IMG/VR virus record: IMGVR_UViG_3300043427_003190
Span: 1-34,285 of that record
From: a virus
DNA length: 34,285 nucleotides
Direction: 5' to 3' (one strand)
A program made the position numbers and the translations under genes. Below, one piece after another: positions 1 through 34,285 of the stretch (its first letter is position 1; each line of letters starts with the position of its first letter). The notes under the pieces are model-generated. The model saw only the letters and a program-made list of their open reading frames with translations. It was not told where the DNA came from and did not search any database.

Positions 1-1157
1 TGCTGAACGAATTCCAAACCGAACTTGCCGTACTCAAGGGTCGTGTTGATGGTCTGGAGGGTCGTGTTGGAAACTTGGAAGCAACACAATTCTCTACCAC
101 AACTAAACTCAAGGGTGAGGTAAACTTTGTTCTTGGTGGCGTTCCCAGTCTTGAAACCAATGCTGGTGCTGATGTGGGTAATACCGCATTTAACTATGAT
201 GTTCGTCTGAACTTTGATACTTCGTTCACTGGTCAGGATTTACTCCGTACCCGTCTTCGTTCTTCTAACTTCAGCACCGATCCTTTTGCTTCTTCTTCTT
301 CCCTGTTCAAACTGGACAAGGCAGACAACACTACGACCAATAACAATGATACAGTCGTAATTGACCGTTTGTACTATCAGTTCCCTGTGAGTGATAGTGT
401 AACTCTGACTGCCGGTGCTCTGGTTCGTAACACTGAGATGGCATGGGTTCCTTCTGCTTATAAGTCGGAAATCCTTGACTTCTTTGCTGTTGCTGGTGCT
501 CCTGGTGTCTATAACAAGGCAACTGGTGCTGGTGTCGGTGCTCAGTATGTCGGTAAGAACGGTTTCGTTGCTGGTCTGAACTATGTTGCTCAGAACGGTG
601 ATGACACTTCAACTGGTGTATTTGACTCCGATGGTGCTCTGAACTTCCTTGCTCAGGTTGGTTATAAGGCATCTAACTGGGGTGTTGGTGTTGGTTATCG
701 TTACGGTTCTGAGGGCACTCGTCCTCGCACCTACAACGGTCTCCTGGGTGCCTCTGGTGCTCTTGTAGATGGTCAAGAGTCCAATGCCATTGCTCTTAAC
801 GCATACTGGCAACCTTCTGAATCTGGTTGGGTTCCCTCCATCAGTGCTGGTTACGGATATAACTTCGTGAATGGTGCTGTTGGTTCTACTGATGCAACCG
901 ATTCCGATTCCTGGTTCGTTGGTCTTCAGTGGGCAGATGCTTTTGTTGCTGGTAACACCGCTGGTGTTGCTGTTGGACAAGCACCTTCTGCTGAAACCGC
1001 TGGTGTATCTGATGCCACGATGCTTGAGTTCTTCTACAAGTTCCAAGTTACCGACAACATCAGCATCACTCCTGCTCTGTTCTACGTTGAAAACAATCAA
1101 CGTTATCAGGACAGCAGCAAGTGGGGTGGTGTAATCCAGACCAAGTTTACTTTCTGA
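1..1157 (+). CDS. Outer-membrane porin, cyanobacterial Som/iron-uptake type (5' end outside window)
   Basis: The reading frame is open from base 3 and ends with TGA at 1155-1157. The first visible residues form a short heptad-like stretch (LAVLKGRVDGLEGRVGNLEA), which in this family links an N-terminal SLH domain to the barrel; the SLH part and true start lie outside the window. From about codon 30 the protein is a Gly/Ala/aromatic-rich alternating beta pattern typical of a 16-18 strand porin, and it ends in KFTF, a C-terminal Phe as expected for BAM-dependent outer-membrane insertion. The family mediates diffusion of solutes, in some members inorganic iron, across the cyanobacterial outer membrane. 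Codon choice looks richer in G+C than the genes that follow, which suggests acquisition from a host. A terminator lies just downstream. Family call confident; substrate unknown. Confidence 0.85.
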   Translation, partial: LNEFQTELAVLKGRVDGLEGRVGNLEATQFSTTTKLKGEVNFVLGGVPSLETNAGADVGNTAFNYDVRLNFDTSFTGQDLLRTRLRSSNFSTDPFASSSSLFKLDKADNTTTNNNDTVVIDRLYYQFPVSDSVTLTAGALVRNTEMAWVPSAYKSEILDFFAVAGAPGVYNKATGAGVGAQYVGKNGFVAGLNYVAQNGDDTSTGVFDSDGALNFLAQVGYKASNWGVGVGYRYGSEGTRPRTYNGLLGASGALVDGQESNAIALNAYWQPSESGWVPSISAGYGYNFVNGAVGSTDATDSDSWFVGLQWADAFVAGNTAGVAVGQAPSAETAGVSDATMLEFFYKFQVTDNISITPALFYVENNQRYQDSSKWGGVIQTKFTF

Positions 1158-1182
1158 TAGGATACCTACATAAAGTAACTGA

Positions 1183-1206
1183 GGGGGTTGACACAACCCC
1201 CTTTTT
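1183..1206 (+). terminator. Intrinsic terminator after porin gene
   Basis: A perfect 8-bp stem, GGGGGTTG (1183-1190) paired with CAACCCCC (1194-1201), has a 3-nt ACA loop and is followed by five T. It lies 25 bases past the porin stop codon. The loop side also holds the -35 box of the next promoter. Confidence 0.92.
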
Positions 1207-1216
1207 AATGTATTAT
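1188..1216 (+). promoter_or_regulatory. Sigma70-type promoter nested in the porin terminator
   Basis: TTGACA (1188-1193) and TATTAT (1211-1216) are separated by 17 bp. The -35 box lies inside the terminator stem-loop and the T-tract lies in the spacer. Transcription would begin near 1223 and drive the small gene at 1238. TATAAAT overlaps the -10 region but lacks the final A of the phage late box. Confidence 0.7.
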
Positions 1217-1237: not shown

Positions 1238-1393
1238 ATGTCTCTTATTTCCCAACGTGATAGGCAATTGACCATTAAAGCATTGAGTTTTTATCTTGAT
1301 GAATTTGGACCGTTAATGAACCAGGAAGAATGGTTAGAAATTAATGCTCTTATAAATTGGATTAAACTAGAACATTCTAAAAATGAAAATTAA
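1238..1393 (+). CDS. Small hypothetical phage protein (51 aa)
   Basis: A 51-codon ORF starts with ATG six or seven bases after a near-perfect TAGGAGG ribosome-binding site (1228-1234). The product starts MSLISQRDRQ, is mostly helical with an amphipathic C-terminal half (LEINALINWIKLEHSK), and has no signal peptide or membrane segment. I do not recognise a domain. Its stop overlaps the start of the next gene by about 11 bases, so the two are likely translationally coupled. The promoter at 1188-1216 should transcribe it. Confidence 0.75.
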   Translation: MSLISQRDRQLTIKALSFYLDEFGPLMNQEEWLEINALINWIKLEHSKNEN

Positions 1394-3228: not shown

Positions 3229-3341
3229 TTTTTCATATTGTGGAATCTGTACTGGAGAATCAGGTTGGCATCTTTATTATCGGATTGCTCTTGACAGCAC
3301 CGGCAGCATTAGGTATAATGTATATACACCACAATAAATAA
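3225..3341 (+). CDS. Very small membrane protein (38 aa)
   Basis: ATG 3225 overlaps the previous TGA (ATGA). After an amphipathic start (MIFHIVESVLENQ), residues 14-33 (VGIFIIGLLLTAPAALGIMY) form one clear membrane helix, followed by IHHNK. The size resembles single-helix subunits of photosystems or cytochrome b6f, but I cannot align it with PetG, PetM, PsbM or PsbN, so no identity is claimed. The stop lies 8 bases before tRNA-Pro. Confidence 0.6.
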   Translation: MIFHIVESVLENQVGIFIIGLLLTAPAALGIMYIHHNK

Positions 3342-3349
3342 CGGTGTAA

Positions 3350-3423
3350 CGGAGTGTGGCGCAGTTTGGTAGCGCATCCGCTTTGGGAGCGGGCGGTCGT
3401 AGGTTCAAATCCTATCACTCCGA
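3350..3423 (+). tRNA. tRNA-Pro (UGG)
   Basis: Acceptor arms CGGAGTG and CACTCCG pair over 7 bp, with the C1 start typical of bacterial tRNA-Pro. The loop TTTGGGA carries UGG at 3384-3386, and the T arm has GGTTCAAATCC. CCA is not encoded. A 7-bp hairpin follows two bases later. Confidence 0.95.
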
Positions 3424-3425
3424 CT

Positions 3426-3448: not shown

Positions 3449-3477
3449 TTGACTTAAAACTCAAATCACACTATAAT
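3449..3477 (+). promoter_or_regulatory. Strong sigma70-type early promoter
   Basis: TTGACT (3449-3454) and a perfect TATAAT (3472-3477) are 17 bp apart. Transcription would start near 3484, leaving a leader of about 17 bases made of repeated ACAAA units and lacking a Shine-Dalgarno. It drives the genes from 3501. Confidence 0.8.
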
Positions 3478-3984: not shown

Positions 3985-4218
3985 ATGTCAAAGTCTGATT
4001 TATTCAGATACATTGGTAACATTCTTCTCTTATCGGGATATTTTTTCTTGCTTTGGGGAGATTTGAAAATCGGTCTATTTGTTAAATGCATAGGAAATGT
4101 TTTTGTAATTCCCTTTGCTATTAAATATAAGTTTTGGGATATACTTGTTATATGTGGATTTTATGCTGCAATAGAAATTCCTAAACTTATTCAACTTTTC
4201 CTAGTTTCTCAAAACTAG
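3985..4218 (+). CDS. Small membrane protein with about three helices (77 aa)
   Basis: Hydrophobic stretches lie at roughly residues 8-24 (RYIGNILLLSGYFFLLWG), 28-46 (KIGLFVKCIGNVFVIPFAIK) and 50-74 (WDILVICGFYAAIEIPKLIQ), separated by short charged turns, so it is probably an inner-membrane or thylakoid protein. A CGGGAG about 12 bases upstream of the ATG is a weak ribosome-binding site. I recall similar proteins in cyanomyoviruses without function. The last codons form the first of the tandem hairpins described at 4201-4346. Confidence 0.75.
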   Translation: MSKSDLFRYIGNILLLSGYFFLLWGDLKIGLFVKCIGNVFVIPFAIKYKFWDILVICGFYAAIEIPKLIQLFLVSQN

Positions 4219-4346
4219 GTGGTGGAGTCAGTATGACCCCCTTGGGTTTCCAATTTTTCCTTCAAAGAATTGGTGGTGCGGATGGAGGTTACTCCCGCCT
4301 GGTTTCCAATTTCCAGTCAAAGAATTGGTGGCGAGCCTGAGTTACA
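4201..4346 (+). repeat. Tandem hairpin repeats, about 55-bp period, noncoding
   Basis: Stem-loops CTAGTTT/AAACTAG (4201-4218), CCAATT/AATTGG (4250-4273) and CCAATT/AATTGG (4305-4328) occur in series. The last two share GGTTTCCAATTT and TCAAAGAATTGGTGG at a 55-bp offset. Each is followed by GGTGG and a second small hairpin (GTCA-TGAC at 4227-4237; GCGG..GGAG with CTCC-CCGC at 4278-4298; a degenerate one near 4333-4350). No start codon with a ribosome-binding site and no long frame fit the stretch, which ends in the terminator at 4349. It may be a structured leader/trailer RNA or a degenerate repeat; function unknown. Confidence 0.6.
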
Positions 4347-4348
4347 TG

Positions 4349-4377
4349 AGATGGGTTGCATAAACCCATCTTTTTTT
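4349..4377 (+). terminator. Intrinsic terminator before the glycan cluster
   Basis: AGATGGGTT (4349-4357) pairs with AACCCATCT (4363-4371) around GCATA, followed by a run of T to 4377. It closes the 3.5-4.2 kb transcript. The stem-loop also carries the -35 box of the promoter for the glycan cluster. Confidence 0.9.
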
Positions 4378-4384
4378 GTATAAT
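4356..4384 (+). promoter_or_regulatory. Promoter of the glycan cluster, nested in terminator
   Basis: TTGCAT (4356-4361) and TATAAT (4379-4384) are 17 bp apart. Transcription would begin near 4391, about 13 bases before the ATG at 4404. It is the only clear promoter I see for the following 21 kb of tightly packed genes. Confidence 0.7.
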
Positions 4385-4403: not shown

Positions 4404-4901
4404 ATGAAAATAGGTTTTAATTGTAGTTGCTTCGATCTTTTTCATGCTGGGCATGTCACAATGCTTAAAATGGAGAGGGAGATGTGCGACTATTTAAAGG
4501 TAGCACTCCAGGTTGATCCAACAGTTGATAGGCCTAGTTTAAAAAATAAACCAGTGCAATCAATCTATGAAAGATATGTTCAAGTACAATCGTGCAAGTA
4601 TGTTGATGAGATTCTTGTCTATGACACTGAAGCAGATCTTCTTAATTTAATTAAGACTCAAACTTTTCATATCAGATTTTTGAGTGAAGAATATAAGGAT
4701 ATTGATTTTACAGGAAAACAATATTGTATGGACAATGATATTGAAATTCATTATCATTTAAGGAGACATCAGTATTCTACTACTGAACTTAGAAACAGAG
4801 TTTATGAACTTGAAAAAGCAAAAAGAGAAGAAAACAATATTAAAGATATTAAACAATATTCTCCTGAACTTTTAGAAAAATATTCGCTGAAGCAAAATTA
4901 A
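4404..4901 (+). CDS. Cytidylyltransferase-like protein (TagD/RfaE nucleotidyltransferase fold)
   Basis: An in-frame TTG lies inside the terminator, but ATG 4404 yields the family N terminus MKIGFNCSCFDLFHAGHV, with the HxGH nucleotide-binding signature (His14-Ala-Gly-His17). Near the C terminus YSTTELRNRV stands where the family's ISTT(E/D) motif binds nucleotide. These enzymes join CTP or ATP to small alcohol phosphates such as glycerol-3-phosphate, or activate heptose-1-phosphate. The 165-aa length is somewhat longer than TagD (about 130), the extra being a charged C-terminal helix. As first gene of the cluster it may make a CDP-polyol or similar donor. Substrate not predictable from sequence. 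Confidence 0.82.
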   Translation: MKIGFNCSCFDLFHAGHVTMLKMEREMCDYLKVALQVDPTVDRPSLKNKPVQSIYERYVQVQSCKYVDEILVYDTEADLLNLIKTQTFHIRFLSEEYKDIDFTGKQYCMDNDIEIHYHLRRHQYSTTELRNRVYELEKAKREENNIKDIKQYSPELLEKYSLKQN

Positions 4902-25635: not shown

Positions 25636-25670
25636 TAGTAATTTATACTCATTGTGTTTTAAAATCATGA

Positions 25671-25698
25671 CAAAGGGGCTTGACGCCCCTTTGTTTTT
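25671..25698 (+). terminator. Intrinsic terminator of the glycan cluster
   Basis: A perfect 9-bp stem CAAAGGGGC (25671-25679) with GCCCCTTTG (25685-25693), loop TTGAC, is followed by TTTTT. It lies 35 bases after the last glycan gene. The loop is the -35 region of the next promoter. Confidence 0.95.
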
Positions 25699-25708
25699 GC
25701 TATATAAT
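25680..25708 (+). promoter_or_regulatory. Promoter nested in terminator, for the hli-petF-prx operon
   Basis: TTGACG (25680-25685; loop plus first stem base) and TATAAT (25703-25708) are 17 bp apart. Transcription would begin near 25715, leaving about 21 bases of leader without a Shine-Dalgarno before ATG 25736. Confidence 0.78.
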
Positions 25709-25735: not shown

Positions 25736-25945
25736 ATGACTGTAACAACTAATGAACGTGGACAAATGAACATGTTCGCTAAAGAGCCTCAAATGTATGT
25801 GTCTCAAGCAGATGCTGAGCGTTATGCACTTGAAACACATGCAGAAAGAGCGGAGAAGGCAAATGGACGCTGGGCAATGGTCGGTTTTGTTGCTGGGATT
25901 ATTTCTTATACTTTCACTGGCAACTTCTTCTTCGGTGTCTTCTGA
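25736..25945 (+). CDS. hli: High-light-inducible protein (Hli/Scp)
   Basis: ATG 25736 gives a 69-aa protein; the upstream open frame runs through the terminator and is not coding. ERAEKANGRWAMVGFVAGII is the chlorophyll-binding helix of the Hli/CAB family (ExxNGRxAM) and SYTFTGNFFFGVF is the C-terminal tail. Hli proteins bind chlorophyll and carotenoid and protect photosystem II during assembly or light stress; phage copies are thought to keep host photosynthesis going during infection. First gene of a short operon; TGATG coupling with the next ORF. Confidence 0.95.
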   Translation: MTVTTNERGQMNMFAKEPQMYVSQADAERYALETHAERAEKANGRWAMVGFVAGIISYTFTGNFFFGVF

Positions 25946-27277: not shown

Positions 27278-27313
27278 AAACTCTGCTTCTAAATATGGAA
27301 GCAGAGTTTTTTT
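27278..27313 (+). terminator. Intrinsic terminator after peroxiredoxin
   Basis: CTCTGCTTC (27281-27289) pairs with GAAGCAGAG (27298-27306), extended by A-T pairs, around an 8-base loop and ends in seven T. Unlike the other three terminators its loop contains no -35 box. Confidence 0.93.
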
Positions 27314-29168: not shown

Positions 29169-30452
29169 ATGGCAATAGATTTTCCTAGTTCACCATTTCC
29201 AAATCAAATCTTTACAACTCCGGAAAGTACTTACATTTGGAGTCAGGATAGGCAGCAATGGGTTGGATATGCTAATGGTGTTCAGGGACTTCAAGGACTT
29301 CAAGGTGTTCAGGGTCTTCAAGGTGTTCAGGGAAGAGATGGTCTTTTTGCTGGACAAGGTACTCAAGGAACACAAGGAACCCAAGGTACTCAAGGTCTTC
29401 AAGGTCTTCAGGGAACACAAGGACGCCAAGGTACCCAAGGTACTCAAGGGACACAAGGCACTCAGGGAACTCAAGGACAACAGGGAACACAAGGTACTCA
29501 AGGACAGCAGGGAACTCAAGGAACTCAAGGTACTCAAGGTACTCAGGGTCTTCAGGGTCTTCAAGGTGTTCAGGGATTAGATGGTCTTTTTGCGGGTCAG
29601 GGAACTCAAGGTACTCAAGGTACTCAAGGTCTTCAGGGTACTCAAGGTACTCAAGGTACTCAAGGACGCCAAGGTACTCAAGGTCAACAAGGTACTCAAG
29701 GTACTCAAGGTACTCAAGGTCTTCAGGGTACTCAAGGACGCCAAGGTTCACAGGGTGCTCAAGGTACGCAAGGAACTCAGGGTACTCAGGGTCTACAAGG
29801 AACTCAAGGACGCCAAGGTACTCAAGGACAACAGGGAACTCAGGGAACTCAAGGTACTCAAGGTCTCCAGGGACTTTCTAACCAAGGAACACAAGGAACT
29901 CAGGGTACTCAAGGTACGCAAGGAACTCAGGGTACTCAGGGTCTTCAAGGTGTTCAAGGATTGGATGGTCTTTTTGCTGGCCAAGGTACTCAAGGAACAC
30001 TGGGTACTCAAGGAACACAAGGAACACAGGGTACTCAAGGAACTATTGGTCTTCAGGGAATTCAAGGAATAATAGGTCCTACTGCATCAGTTCCAGACCA
30101 ATCTGTGATCTTAAATGATATATCAAATTCATTTAATGGAGTTACTACACAATTTACAATTACTTCTGGAAGCCCAGCAACCAACTTTATAAATAGTGAA
30201 ATAGATGGAGCAGCAAGGTTGCTTATCTCTGTTGGTGGTGTCGTCCAACAACCAGATCCAACACAAAGTGCTGGATTTTATATTACTGGAGGAACTGATA
30301 GGACAACAGACCCAATAAAAATTAACTTTGTAGAGGCACCAAGAGCAGGAATGGCATTTTTCGGAGTAGCAATAAAATCAACAAATTCTCCAAATGTAGC
30401 ATATGCTCCTGCAGGGGAACCAGTCACATATGCAATTGTATTCGGAGTGTAG
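29169..30452 (+). CDS. Collagen-like virion fibre protein (427 aa)
   Basis: The N-terminal domain (IDFPSSPFPNQIFTTPESTY then WSQDRQQWVGYANG) is a common phage-fibre start module. Residues 40 to about 305 are Gly-X-Y triplets, nearly all GTQ with some GLQ, GRQ, GQQ and GVQ. There are three breaks of the type (R/L)DGLFAGQ and one LSNQ. The C-terminal 120 residues (VPDQSVILNDISNSFNGVTT) form a beta-rich head with a Gly-Ala-Pro-rich end. The triplets should make a collagen-type trimer; Thr in the X position could carry O-glycans. Late box upstream. Reverse-strand open frames opposite the triplets are by-products of the repeat. Confidence 0.9.
   Translation: MAIDFPSSPFPNQIFTTPESTYIWSQDRQQWVGYANGVQGLQGLQGVQGLQGVQGRDGLFAGQGTQGTQGTQGTQGLQGLQGTQGRQGTQGTQGTQGTQGTQGQQGTQGTQGQQGTQGTQGTQGTQGLQGLQGVQGLDGLFAGQGTQGTQGTQGLQGTQGTQGTQGRQGTQGQQGTQGTQGTQGLQGTQGRQGSQGAQGTQGTQGTQGLQGTQGRQGTQGQQGTQGTQGTQGLQGLSNQGTQGTQGTQGTQGTQGTQGLQGVQGLDGLFAGQGTQGTLGTQGTQGTQGTQGTIGLQGIQGIIGPTASVPDQSVILNDISNSFNGVTTQFTITSGSPATNFINSEIDGAARLLISVGGVVQQPDPTQSAGFYITGGTDRTTDPIKINFVEAPRAGMAFFGVAIKSTNSPNVAYAPAGEPVTYAIVFGV
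29280..30084 (+). repeat. GGT-ACT-CAA codon repeat (collagen-like) in first fibre gene
   Basis: Nine-base units of GGTACTCAA type with synonymous variation (GGA, ACA, CAG). A 77-base stretch, 29703-29779, is identical to 33949-34025 in the second collagen-like gene, so recombination or gene conversion between the two is likely. Confidence 0.95.
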
Positions 30453-33333: not shown

Positions 33334-34285
33334 ATGGCAGAATTATCCAGAGTTCAAATTCTTAAAAACGCAGAAGTTATTGGAGTTGGATCTACCGGCG
33401 GAAAAATTAAACTTTATGATGGTAATGAAACCGGATATGTGGATATTAAATCTCCAAATACAGTTGGAACTGGATATACAATTACGCTTCCAACAAGTCT
33501 TGGAACTCCAGGAAAGGTACTGCAACTTGTAGATGACCAAGGAAATACTGACTGGCAAACATCAATCGCTGGAGTTGGTATTAATACAGTAGGTGGAGTT
33601 GTTGGCACTGGTGCAACTGTATTAGATTTTCGTGGAAGTGGAATTTCTACAGTAACTGTAAATTCTGGAATTGCTACTATTAACATTGAGGGTGGTGGAG
33701 TACAAGGTTCTTCAGGGACTCAAGGTTCTCAGGGGACTCAAGGTTCTCAGGGGACTCAAGGTACTCAAGGTCTAAGCAATCAAGGCACTCAAGGAACTCA
33801 AGGTCAACAAGGTACTCAAGGTACTCAAGGGCAACAAGGTACTCAAGGTACCCAAGGGCAACAAGGAACTCAAGGGACTCAAGGCACTCAAGGTCTTCAA
33901 GGAACACAAGGGCGCCAAGGTTCTCAGGGTGCTCAGGGCACTCAAGGCACTCAAGGTACTCAAGGTCTTCAGGGTACTCAAGGACGCCAAGGTTCACAGG
34001 GTGCTCAAGGTACGCAAGGAACTCAAGGTCTAAGTAATCAAGGAACTCAAGGAACTCAAGGTCTAAGTAATCAAGGAACTCAAGGAACACAGGGTGACCA
34101 AGGTGTTCAAGGTACTCAAGGTACTCAGGGTGACCAAGGTGTTCAAGGAACACAAGGAACTCAAGGTACCCAAGGGCAACAAGGAACTCAAGGGACTCAA
34201 GGCACTCAAGGTCTTCAAGGAACACAAGGGCGCCAAGGTTCTCAGGGTGCTCAGGGCACTCAAGGCACTCAAGGTACTCAAGGTC
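33334..34285 (+). CDS. Second collagen-like virion fibre protein (3' end outside window)
   Basis: ATG 33334 follows the previous stop directly, and the frame stays open to the window end (317 codons). The N-terminal 120 residues (MAELSRVQILKNAEVIGVGS, TGYTITLPTSLGTPGKVLQL, VDDQGNTDWQTS) form a beta-rich module like the 'YTLP..G..GQVL' module of phage fibres, followed by GVGINTVGGVVGTGATVLDF. From about residue 124 Gly-X-Y triplets begin (GSS, GTQ, GSQ, GQQ, GLQ, GDQ, GRQ, GAQ) with several LSNQ breaks. It is longer and more varied than the first collagen-like fibre and shares DNA with it. Confidence 0.9.
   Translation, partial: MAELSRVQILKNAEVIGVGSTGGKIKLYDGNETGYVDIKSPNTVGTGYTITLPTSLGTPGKVLQLVDDQGNTDWQTSIAGVGINTVGGVVGTGATVLDFRGSGISTVTVNSGIATINIEGGGVQGSSGTQGSQGTQGSQGTQGTQGLSNQGTQGTQGQQGTQGTQGQQGTQGTQGQQGTQGTQGTQGLQGTQGRQGSQGAQGTQGTQGTQGLQGTQGRQGSQGAQGTQGTQGLSNQGTQGTQGLSNQGTQGTQGDQGVQGTQGTQGDQGVQGTQGTQGTQGQQGTQGTQGTQGLQGTQGRQGSQGAQGTQGTQGTQG
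33841..33967 (+). repeat. 127-bp exact direct repeat in second collagen-like gene, copy 1
   Basis: Identical to 34159-34285 at an offset of 318 bases (106 codons, in frame). The second copy reaches the window edge, so the repeat may be longer. Such a repeat lets the fibre length change by recombination. Confidence 0.93.
34159..34285 (+). repeat. 127-bp exact direct repeat, copy 2 (reaches window end)
   Basis: Same sequence as 33841-33967, including the ACCCAAGGGC, GGGCGCCAAGG and GCACTCAAGGCACTC variants that mark the copy. The block between the copies holds two LSNQ breaks and two GDQ triplets. Confidence 0.93.

Follow-up and report, generated by a model that had tools for sequence, protein, structure and literature searches.

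Three short intergenic elements in a cyanophage genome raise the question of whether a transcription terminator and the next promoter can occupy the same DNA and be selected as one object. The window analyzed here is a whole virus record of 34,285 bases. It belongs to a T4-like cyanophage with phage structural and high-light-inducible (hli) genes, and the nearest annotated record is Synechococcus phage S-SRM01, a kyanovirus. Genome G+C is 34.5% and the intergenic gaps are short.

Anatomy and setting of the three modules

A sequence-only reading of this DNA had described three modules in which a terminator hairpin holds the -35 hexamer, the spacer contains the T-tract and a -10 box comes 17 bp later. 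All three were recovered with this layout (Table 1). Gene positions agree with its placing of module 1 after a porin gene, module 2 before a glycan cluster and module 3 after that cluster and before an hli gene. Module 2 stood as described, but a wcaG RNA directly upstream had been missed; the module 2 hairpin starts 5 bases past it. Folded alone, the hairpins of modules 1, 2 and 3 reached -16.4, -14.5 and -18.5 kcal/mol, with z-scores of -4.1, -5.2 and -5.4 and no shuffle equally good. Four intergenic plus-strand terminators were found by our own scan (at 1181, 4348, 25669 and 27278), and three of them are fused to a promoter; the terminator at 27278-27309 is not.

Table 1. Positions of the modules, neighboring features and related sites (window coordinates unless another record is named)
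Feature	Position	Strand	Details
OprB-type porin gene	3-1157		module 1 lies behind this gene
Module 1	1181..1216	+	hairpin 1181-1203; -35 TTGACA 1188-1193; T-tract 1202-1206; -10 TATTAT 1211-1216
51-aa gene, phrog_38106 (no function assigned)	1238..1393	+	candidate target of module 1 promoter; leader ~15 nt
Small conserved gene, phrog_2318 (no function assigned)	3985..4218	+	ends just 5' of wcaG
wcaG RNA (RF01761)	4242..4342	+	89.7 bits vs gathering score 42
Module 2	4348..4384	+	hairpin 4348-4372; -35-like TTGCAT 4356-4361; T-tract 4371-4377; -10 TATAAT 4379-4384
Cytidylyltransferase-like gene, PF01467 / phrog_7878	4404..4901	+	first gene of glycan cluster; candidate target of module 2 promoter; leader ~13 nt, without wcaG
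Module 3	25669..25708	+	hairpin 25669-25695; -35 TTGACG 25680-25685; T-tract 25694-25698; -10 TATAAT 25703-25708
High-light-inducible protein (hli) gene, phrog_178	25736..25945	+	candidate target of module 3 promoter; leader ~21 nt
Nested-hairpin site, S-SRM01	157817		record coordinate
Nested-hairpin site, S-B05	197356		record coordinate
Nested-hairpin site, S-CAM1	133024		record coordinate
Nested-hairpin site, S-H35	69647		record coordinate
Nested-hairpin site, MITS9220M01	120409		record coordinate

The promoter halves differ in quality. Compared with T4-type early promoters, module 1 fits (GTTGAC, TATTAT), module 3 reads CTTGAC with TATAAT, and module 2 is a partial match (GTTGCA, TATAAT). 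The module 2 hexamer agrees with TTGACA at only 3/6 positions and is weak by consensus, yet conserved; this promoter may therefore be weak or need a phage factor. The heptamer TATAAAT, used as a query for T4 late promoters (PMC3037559), occurs at 1214-1220 and overlaps the module 1 -10, so that module 1 could be a late promoter. Only the closest relatives share TATAAAT and most do not.

Pairwise identity among the three modules is 19-26/46 bases and their stems are unrelated, in line with the earlier description of a shared architecture and not a copied repeat. Hairpin-free promoters also occur in the window: tRNA-Pro at 3350-3424 is flanked by two strong ones, at 3291-3319 (TTGACA-17-TATAAT, 12/12) and 3449-3477 (TTGACT-17-TATAAT, 11/12). 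A weak third tRNA match lies at 2376-2458 (Rfam, 30.4 bits, without an ARAGORN call), and long collagen-like proteins with GTQGTQG repeats are encoded at 29169-30452 and 33334-34285, near tail-fibre genes.

Recurrence of the fused layout

The earlier reading would have been refuted by a co-occurrence no commoner than in shuffled sequence, and it proved commoner. A fixed-criteria scan of the window returned exactly three modules on the plus strand and none on the minus strand, whereas 200 dinucleotide-preserving shuffles gave a mean of 0.015 and a maximum of 1; since the scan criteria were set with the three modules known, the 0.015 figure is descriptive and other genomes count more. The comparison set comprised 15 cyanomyovirus genomes together with RB49, KVP40 and T4. 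Enrichment of a TTGACA-like box with a -10 at 17 bp behind terminators, which the sequence-only reading had proposed looking for in other cyanophages, was indeed found. Among 450 terminators of the 15 cyanophage genomes, -10-like boxes peaked 8-12 bases past the start of the T-run (78 matches vs roughly 20 per five positions). With the window added to these genomes, a TTGACA-like hexamer (5/6 or better) lay 17 bp before the post-terminator -10 in 24/177 cases, against 0-2 cases at each of the other spacings (10-16 and 18-25). TTGACA ranked first among its 180 letter permutations, the next being TTGCAA with 10 cases. The hexamer was inside the hairpin in 24/24 of the 17-bp cases, and when downstream segments were permuted among terminators, composites averaged 6.2 (maximum 15 in 200 permutations) against the observed 24. 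Starts of the -35 piled up 15-11 bases before the T-run, making the fused layout the main peak, whereas tandem layouts were scattered.

Hairpins lying in the spacer were rejected as a general explanation, being a separate and weaker class in cyanophages (30/903 promoters vs 9-17 in shuffles). Five cyanophage records share a conserved nested hairpin (GGAGGTAACTGGCACAATCCAGTTGACACCTCCC or similar) in which promoter and terminator are likewise fused (Table 1).

The layout was also compared between viral and cellular sequence, using a promoter pattern of TTGAC, four G/C, five T and TATAAT with variable short gaps. Among the matches listed, a hairpin surrounded the -35 at 54/104 viral sites, with 1.8 expected from shuffled upstream sequence, and at 10/119 sites in bacterial genomes, with 2.7 expected. 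A general cellular design was rejected: the promoter pattern is common in bacterial genomes and the hairpin rare among the matches listed. Several viral examples adjoin core T4-like genes (clamp loader, DNA polymerase, sliding clamp, Hsp20).

Individual sites are conserved to different degrees. The module 1 site carries the same module in S-SRM01 (at 186421) and was fused in 32/35 of the distinct promoter-bearing environmental loci listed; one group of loci, with a tRNA gene ending just upstream, has no such promoter. The module 3 (hli) site is the same in S-PM2, DSL-LC02, S-CAM1 and environmental phages. Fused modules also stand at 191540 in S-SRM01 and at 124309 in S-PM2. Across the 80 hli loci listed the promoter is nearly fixed and the hairpin takes several registers and diverse sequences or is missing; the terminator half thus appears dispensable here, as many relatives keep the promoter without it. 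A tree of the downstream hli genes requires at least 13 changes of the fused state, although this quick tree gives no direction of change and depends on the hairpin-score threshold.

Stems covaried at the two sites analyzed for pairing. The 43 gapless sequences compared at the wcaG site, the window among them, had 94.9% standard pairs, with 6/11 pairs changed on both sides, in 58 cells; the sequences compared here and at the module 1 and hli sites are related, so that these counts are descriptive and not of independent events. None of 500 shuffles was as good, and slid controls were 39-70% paired. Seven sequences in one register at the hli site were 100% paired, with double changes in 6/10 pairs. 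Promoter spacing stayed constant at both sites while the stems covaried. Short gaps of low G+C would favor ordinary terminators and promoters overlapping by chance, an explanation contradicted by the shuffles, permutations, spacing controls and covariation and left extremely improbable.

Sequence, geometry, enrichment, covariation and conserved placement point instead to modules that are very probably compact stop-and-restart punctuation between transcription units, selected as one object. From the comparisons we infer both termination and initiation in infected cells, and their timing. The incoming RNA polymerase would make the hairpin and its U's and end its RNA at the T-tract, only a few bases short of the -10, with predicted 3' ends at ~1207-1210, 4376-4379 and 25699-25702. 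DNA of the hairpin apex would double as the -35 of a host-type promoter (sigma-70/SigA, T4-early-like GTT[G/T]AC) with its -10 17 bp on. A fresh or the same polymerase would start a new RNA just downstream (predicted near 1223, 4391 and 25715), whose 13-21 nt leader would not carry the terminator. Selection would keep the pairing, T-tract and 17-bp geometry and leave the stem sequence free, and stems would therefore differ between and within genomes. Support for the stop-and-restart architecture of the earlier reading thus comes from enrichment at specific positions, from compensatory changes in the stems and from a placement conserved across many phages. Interference between the two halves, which it had also raised, is plausible on geometric grounds, the expected 3' end of the RNA lying right against the -10.

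The same proximity could favor a hand-off, in which the terminating polymerase does not leave the DNA at the T-tract but begins again from the promoter already in contact with it, so that transcription from upstream would feed the downstream gene. In vitro, the RNA polymerase of E. coli usually remains bound to DNA once intrinsic termination has occurred and is able to reinitiate at promoters close by (PMC6978380, PMC6978322), and the terminator-to-promoter distance in the modules is near zero. A stalled polymerase could equally block the promoter, however, and space saving accounts for the geometry without any coupling; we regard such a hand-off as unlikely.

The wcaG RNA ahead of module 2

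The wcaG motif has been classified as a cis-regulatory RNA and probable riboswitch (PMC2864571). A set of 67 distinct environmental loci listed was found by a 3'-end motif. The terminator lay 8-20 nt past the core in 61/67 of them and 56/67 were fused, the hexamer at 17 bp being mostly TTGCAT (31), TTTACA (10) or TTGACA (9). The -10 stood 8 bases past the T-run start in 50/56 of these fused loci. Because the 3'-end motif was derived from the window, the search was repeated with a motif from the wcaG core, and 37/65 of the new loci listed from that search alone were fused. Both sets pooled gave 103 distinct cores listed: 69 fused, 12 with a terminator only, 7 with a tRNA next and no terminator, and 15 other. 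Five of 12 reference wcaG cases, window included, were fused by our reading; the others precede tRNAs, hli or a gene directly. The fused module thus appears typical of glycan-island wcaG, and not universal.

If the module 2 terminator were the expression platform of a wcaG riboswitch, a ligand would set read-through into the glycan genes and the -10 would be secondary or unused. The probable riboswitch status of wcaG and the regular placing of the terminator past the core suit this arrangement. No antiterminator-like pairing of the terminator 5' arm with upstream RNA of the same locus was found, however (longest match, mean 4.57 vs 4.64 swapped). In the minimum-energy fold, wcaG and the module 2 terminator form together with no mutual exclusion. 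No sigma-70-like promoter was found in the 300 nt before the core motif, nor TATAAATA within 400 nt upstream of wcaG (52 loci in each case). The lack of excess complementarity, the coexisting helices and the missing upstream promoter argue against a simple terminator-switching riboswitch, leaving room for other control. The constant position of the -10 and the wcaG RNAs that precede tRNAs without a terminator also count against an expression platform, which we consider improbable. A stand-alone wcaG small RNA was likewise unsupported, with no promoter of its own found upstream in the 52 loci.

An RNA started at the fused module would lack wcaG. At module 2 the stopped RNA would end in the wcaG structure, and the new glycan mRNA would be free of it. 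A plausible rather than probable reading is that, in most cyanophage glycan islands, wcaG often forms the 3' end of the transcript arriving from upstream and does not serve as 5' leader to the next gene, and that its closing terminator shares DNA with the next promoter. wcaG would then influence termination or the stability of the RNA, or work as a released RNA; the geometry may hand over or block a terminating polymerase.

The gene neighborhood of this unit is varied. Among the environmental loci listed, wcaG plus module 2 was found with 13 downstream and 12 upstream gene families, and a family with a C-terminus matching the phrog_2318 gene lay upstream of wcaG in 27/55 loci listed. Further hairpin-like units with CCTGGTGGAGTCA or CCTGGTCGG on the 3' side occur upstream of wcaG in DSL-LC03, S-CREM1, S-CAM1, S-H35, DSL-LC02 and S-B05. 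In one locus (L847) the wcaG core runs straight into the interior of a cytidylyltransferase gene, as though through loss of the module (or misassembly). A limited literature search found no mention of a terminator and promoter between wcaG and the downstream gene, and the link of module 2 to wcaG is apparently new, at least to us.

The most interesting consequence is for the reading of this riboswitch candidate: if glycan mRNA starts past wcaG, ligand screens that assume a 5'-leader switch target the wrong transcript. More generally, comparison gives strong evidence that selection in T4-like phages acts on terminator and promoter together, as a single object, and the geometry is searchable and testable. 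The modules are also ready-made reporters of whether a terminating polymerase helps or hinders the promoter underneath.

Comparison with known systems

A composite promoter-terminator motif of T4-like phages, the promoter-early stem-loop (PeSL), has reportedly been described, in work attributed to Arbiol et al. 2010 and Comeau et al. 2014. The architecture noted by the sequence-only reading is real, but that reading had missed that this general kind is already described. Like PeSLs, the modules combine a stem-loop terminator and a sigma-70-type promoter in one small intergenic element (the module 2 -35 being weak by consensus) and are carried by a T4-like myovirus. Unlike PeSLs, they have no recurrent copies in the window similar enough to recombine, at 19-26/46 identical bases. 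As they would work like PeSLs and fail the copied-repeat feature, we file them as a PeSL variant, with PeSL understood partly through a citing paper (PMC4503421). KVP40, which we take to be a phage of the PeSL literature, shows the same -35-in-hairpin layout, but with an 18-bp spacer. Strong examples in RB49 have the hairpin wholly in the spacer and near-identical copies, whereas in the window the hairpin holds the -35, the spacer holds the T-tract and the stems are of unrelated sequence. Twelve RB49 sites have strongly similar promoters whose 17-bp spacer is taken up by a hairpin, and no T-tract separates that hairpin from the -10.

In the full sense of a PeSL, the modules would be recombination cassettes whose shared sequence lets neighboring gene blocks swap. 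PeSLs are cited as mediators of shuffling in T4-like phages by a 2015 paper on S-PM2, which finds them sparse in that phage and judges the mechanism unlikely there (PMC4503421). The varied families flanking the wcaG-module 2 unit fit such exchange, although varied downstream genes would also be expected of an element that regulates glycan operons. This unit alone is long enough for homologous recombination, and its place before 13 gene families shows a conserved junction, not proof of recombination. Little sequence is shared by modules 1 and 3 that could support it; with unrelated stems in place of copied repeats, the earlier suggestion that the modules helped insert cassettes is weak, and recombination cassettes are a doubtful explanation. 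The original observation is confirmed, and the stop-and-restart reading is well supported by comparison across phages.

The promoters resemble T4-type early promoters in part, module by module, in a GTT[T/G]AC-like -35 and a TATAAT-like -10. The T4 early -35 is GTTTAC, and RB49, RB43 and Aeh1 prefer G (PMC1524935); both TTGACA and TTTACA classes occur at the wcaG site. Unlike T4-type early promoters, the -35 here doubles as the terminator apex, and the commonest wcaG-site hexamer is TTGCAT. Module 2 follows a good-scoring member of the wcaG motif (RF01761), upstream of glycan genes as described (PMC2864571). Unlike wcaG as described, 69 of the 103 distinct environmental cores listed are separated from their supposed target gene by a terminator and a promoter-like sequence.
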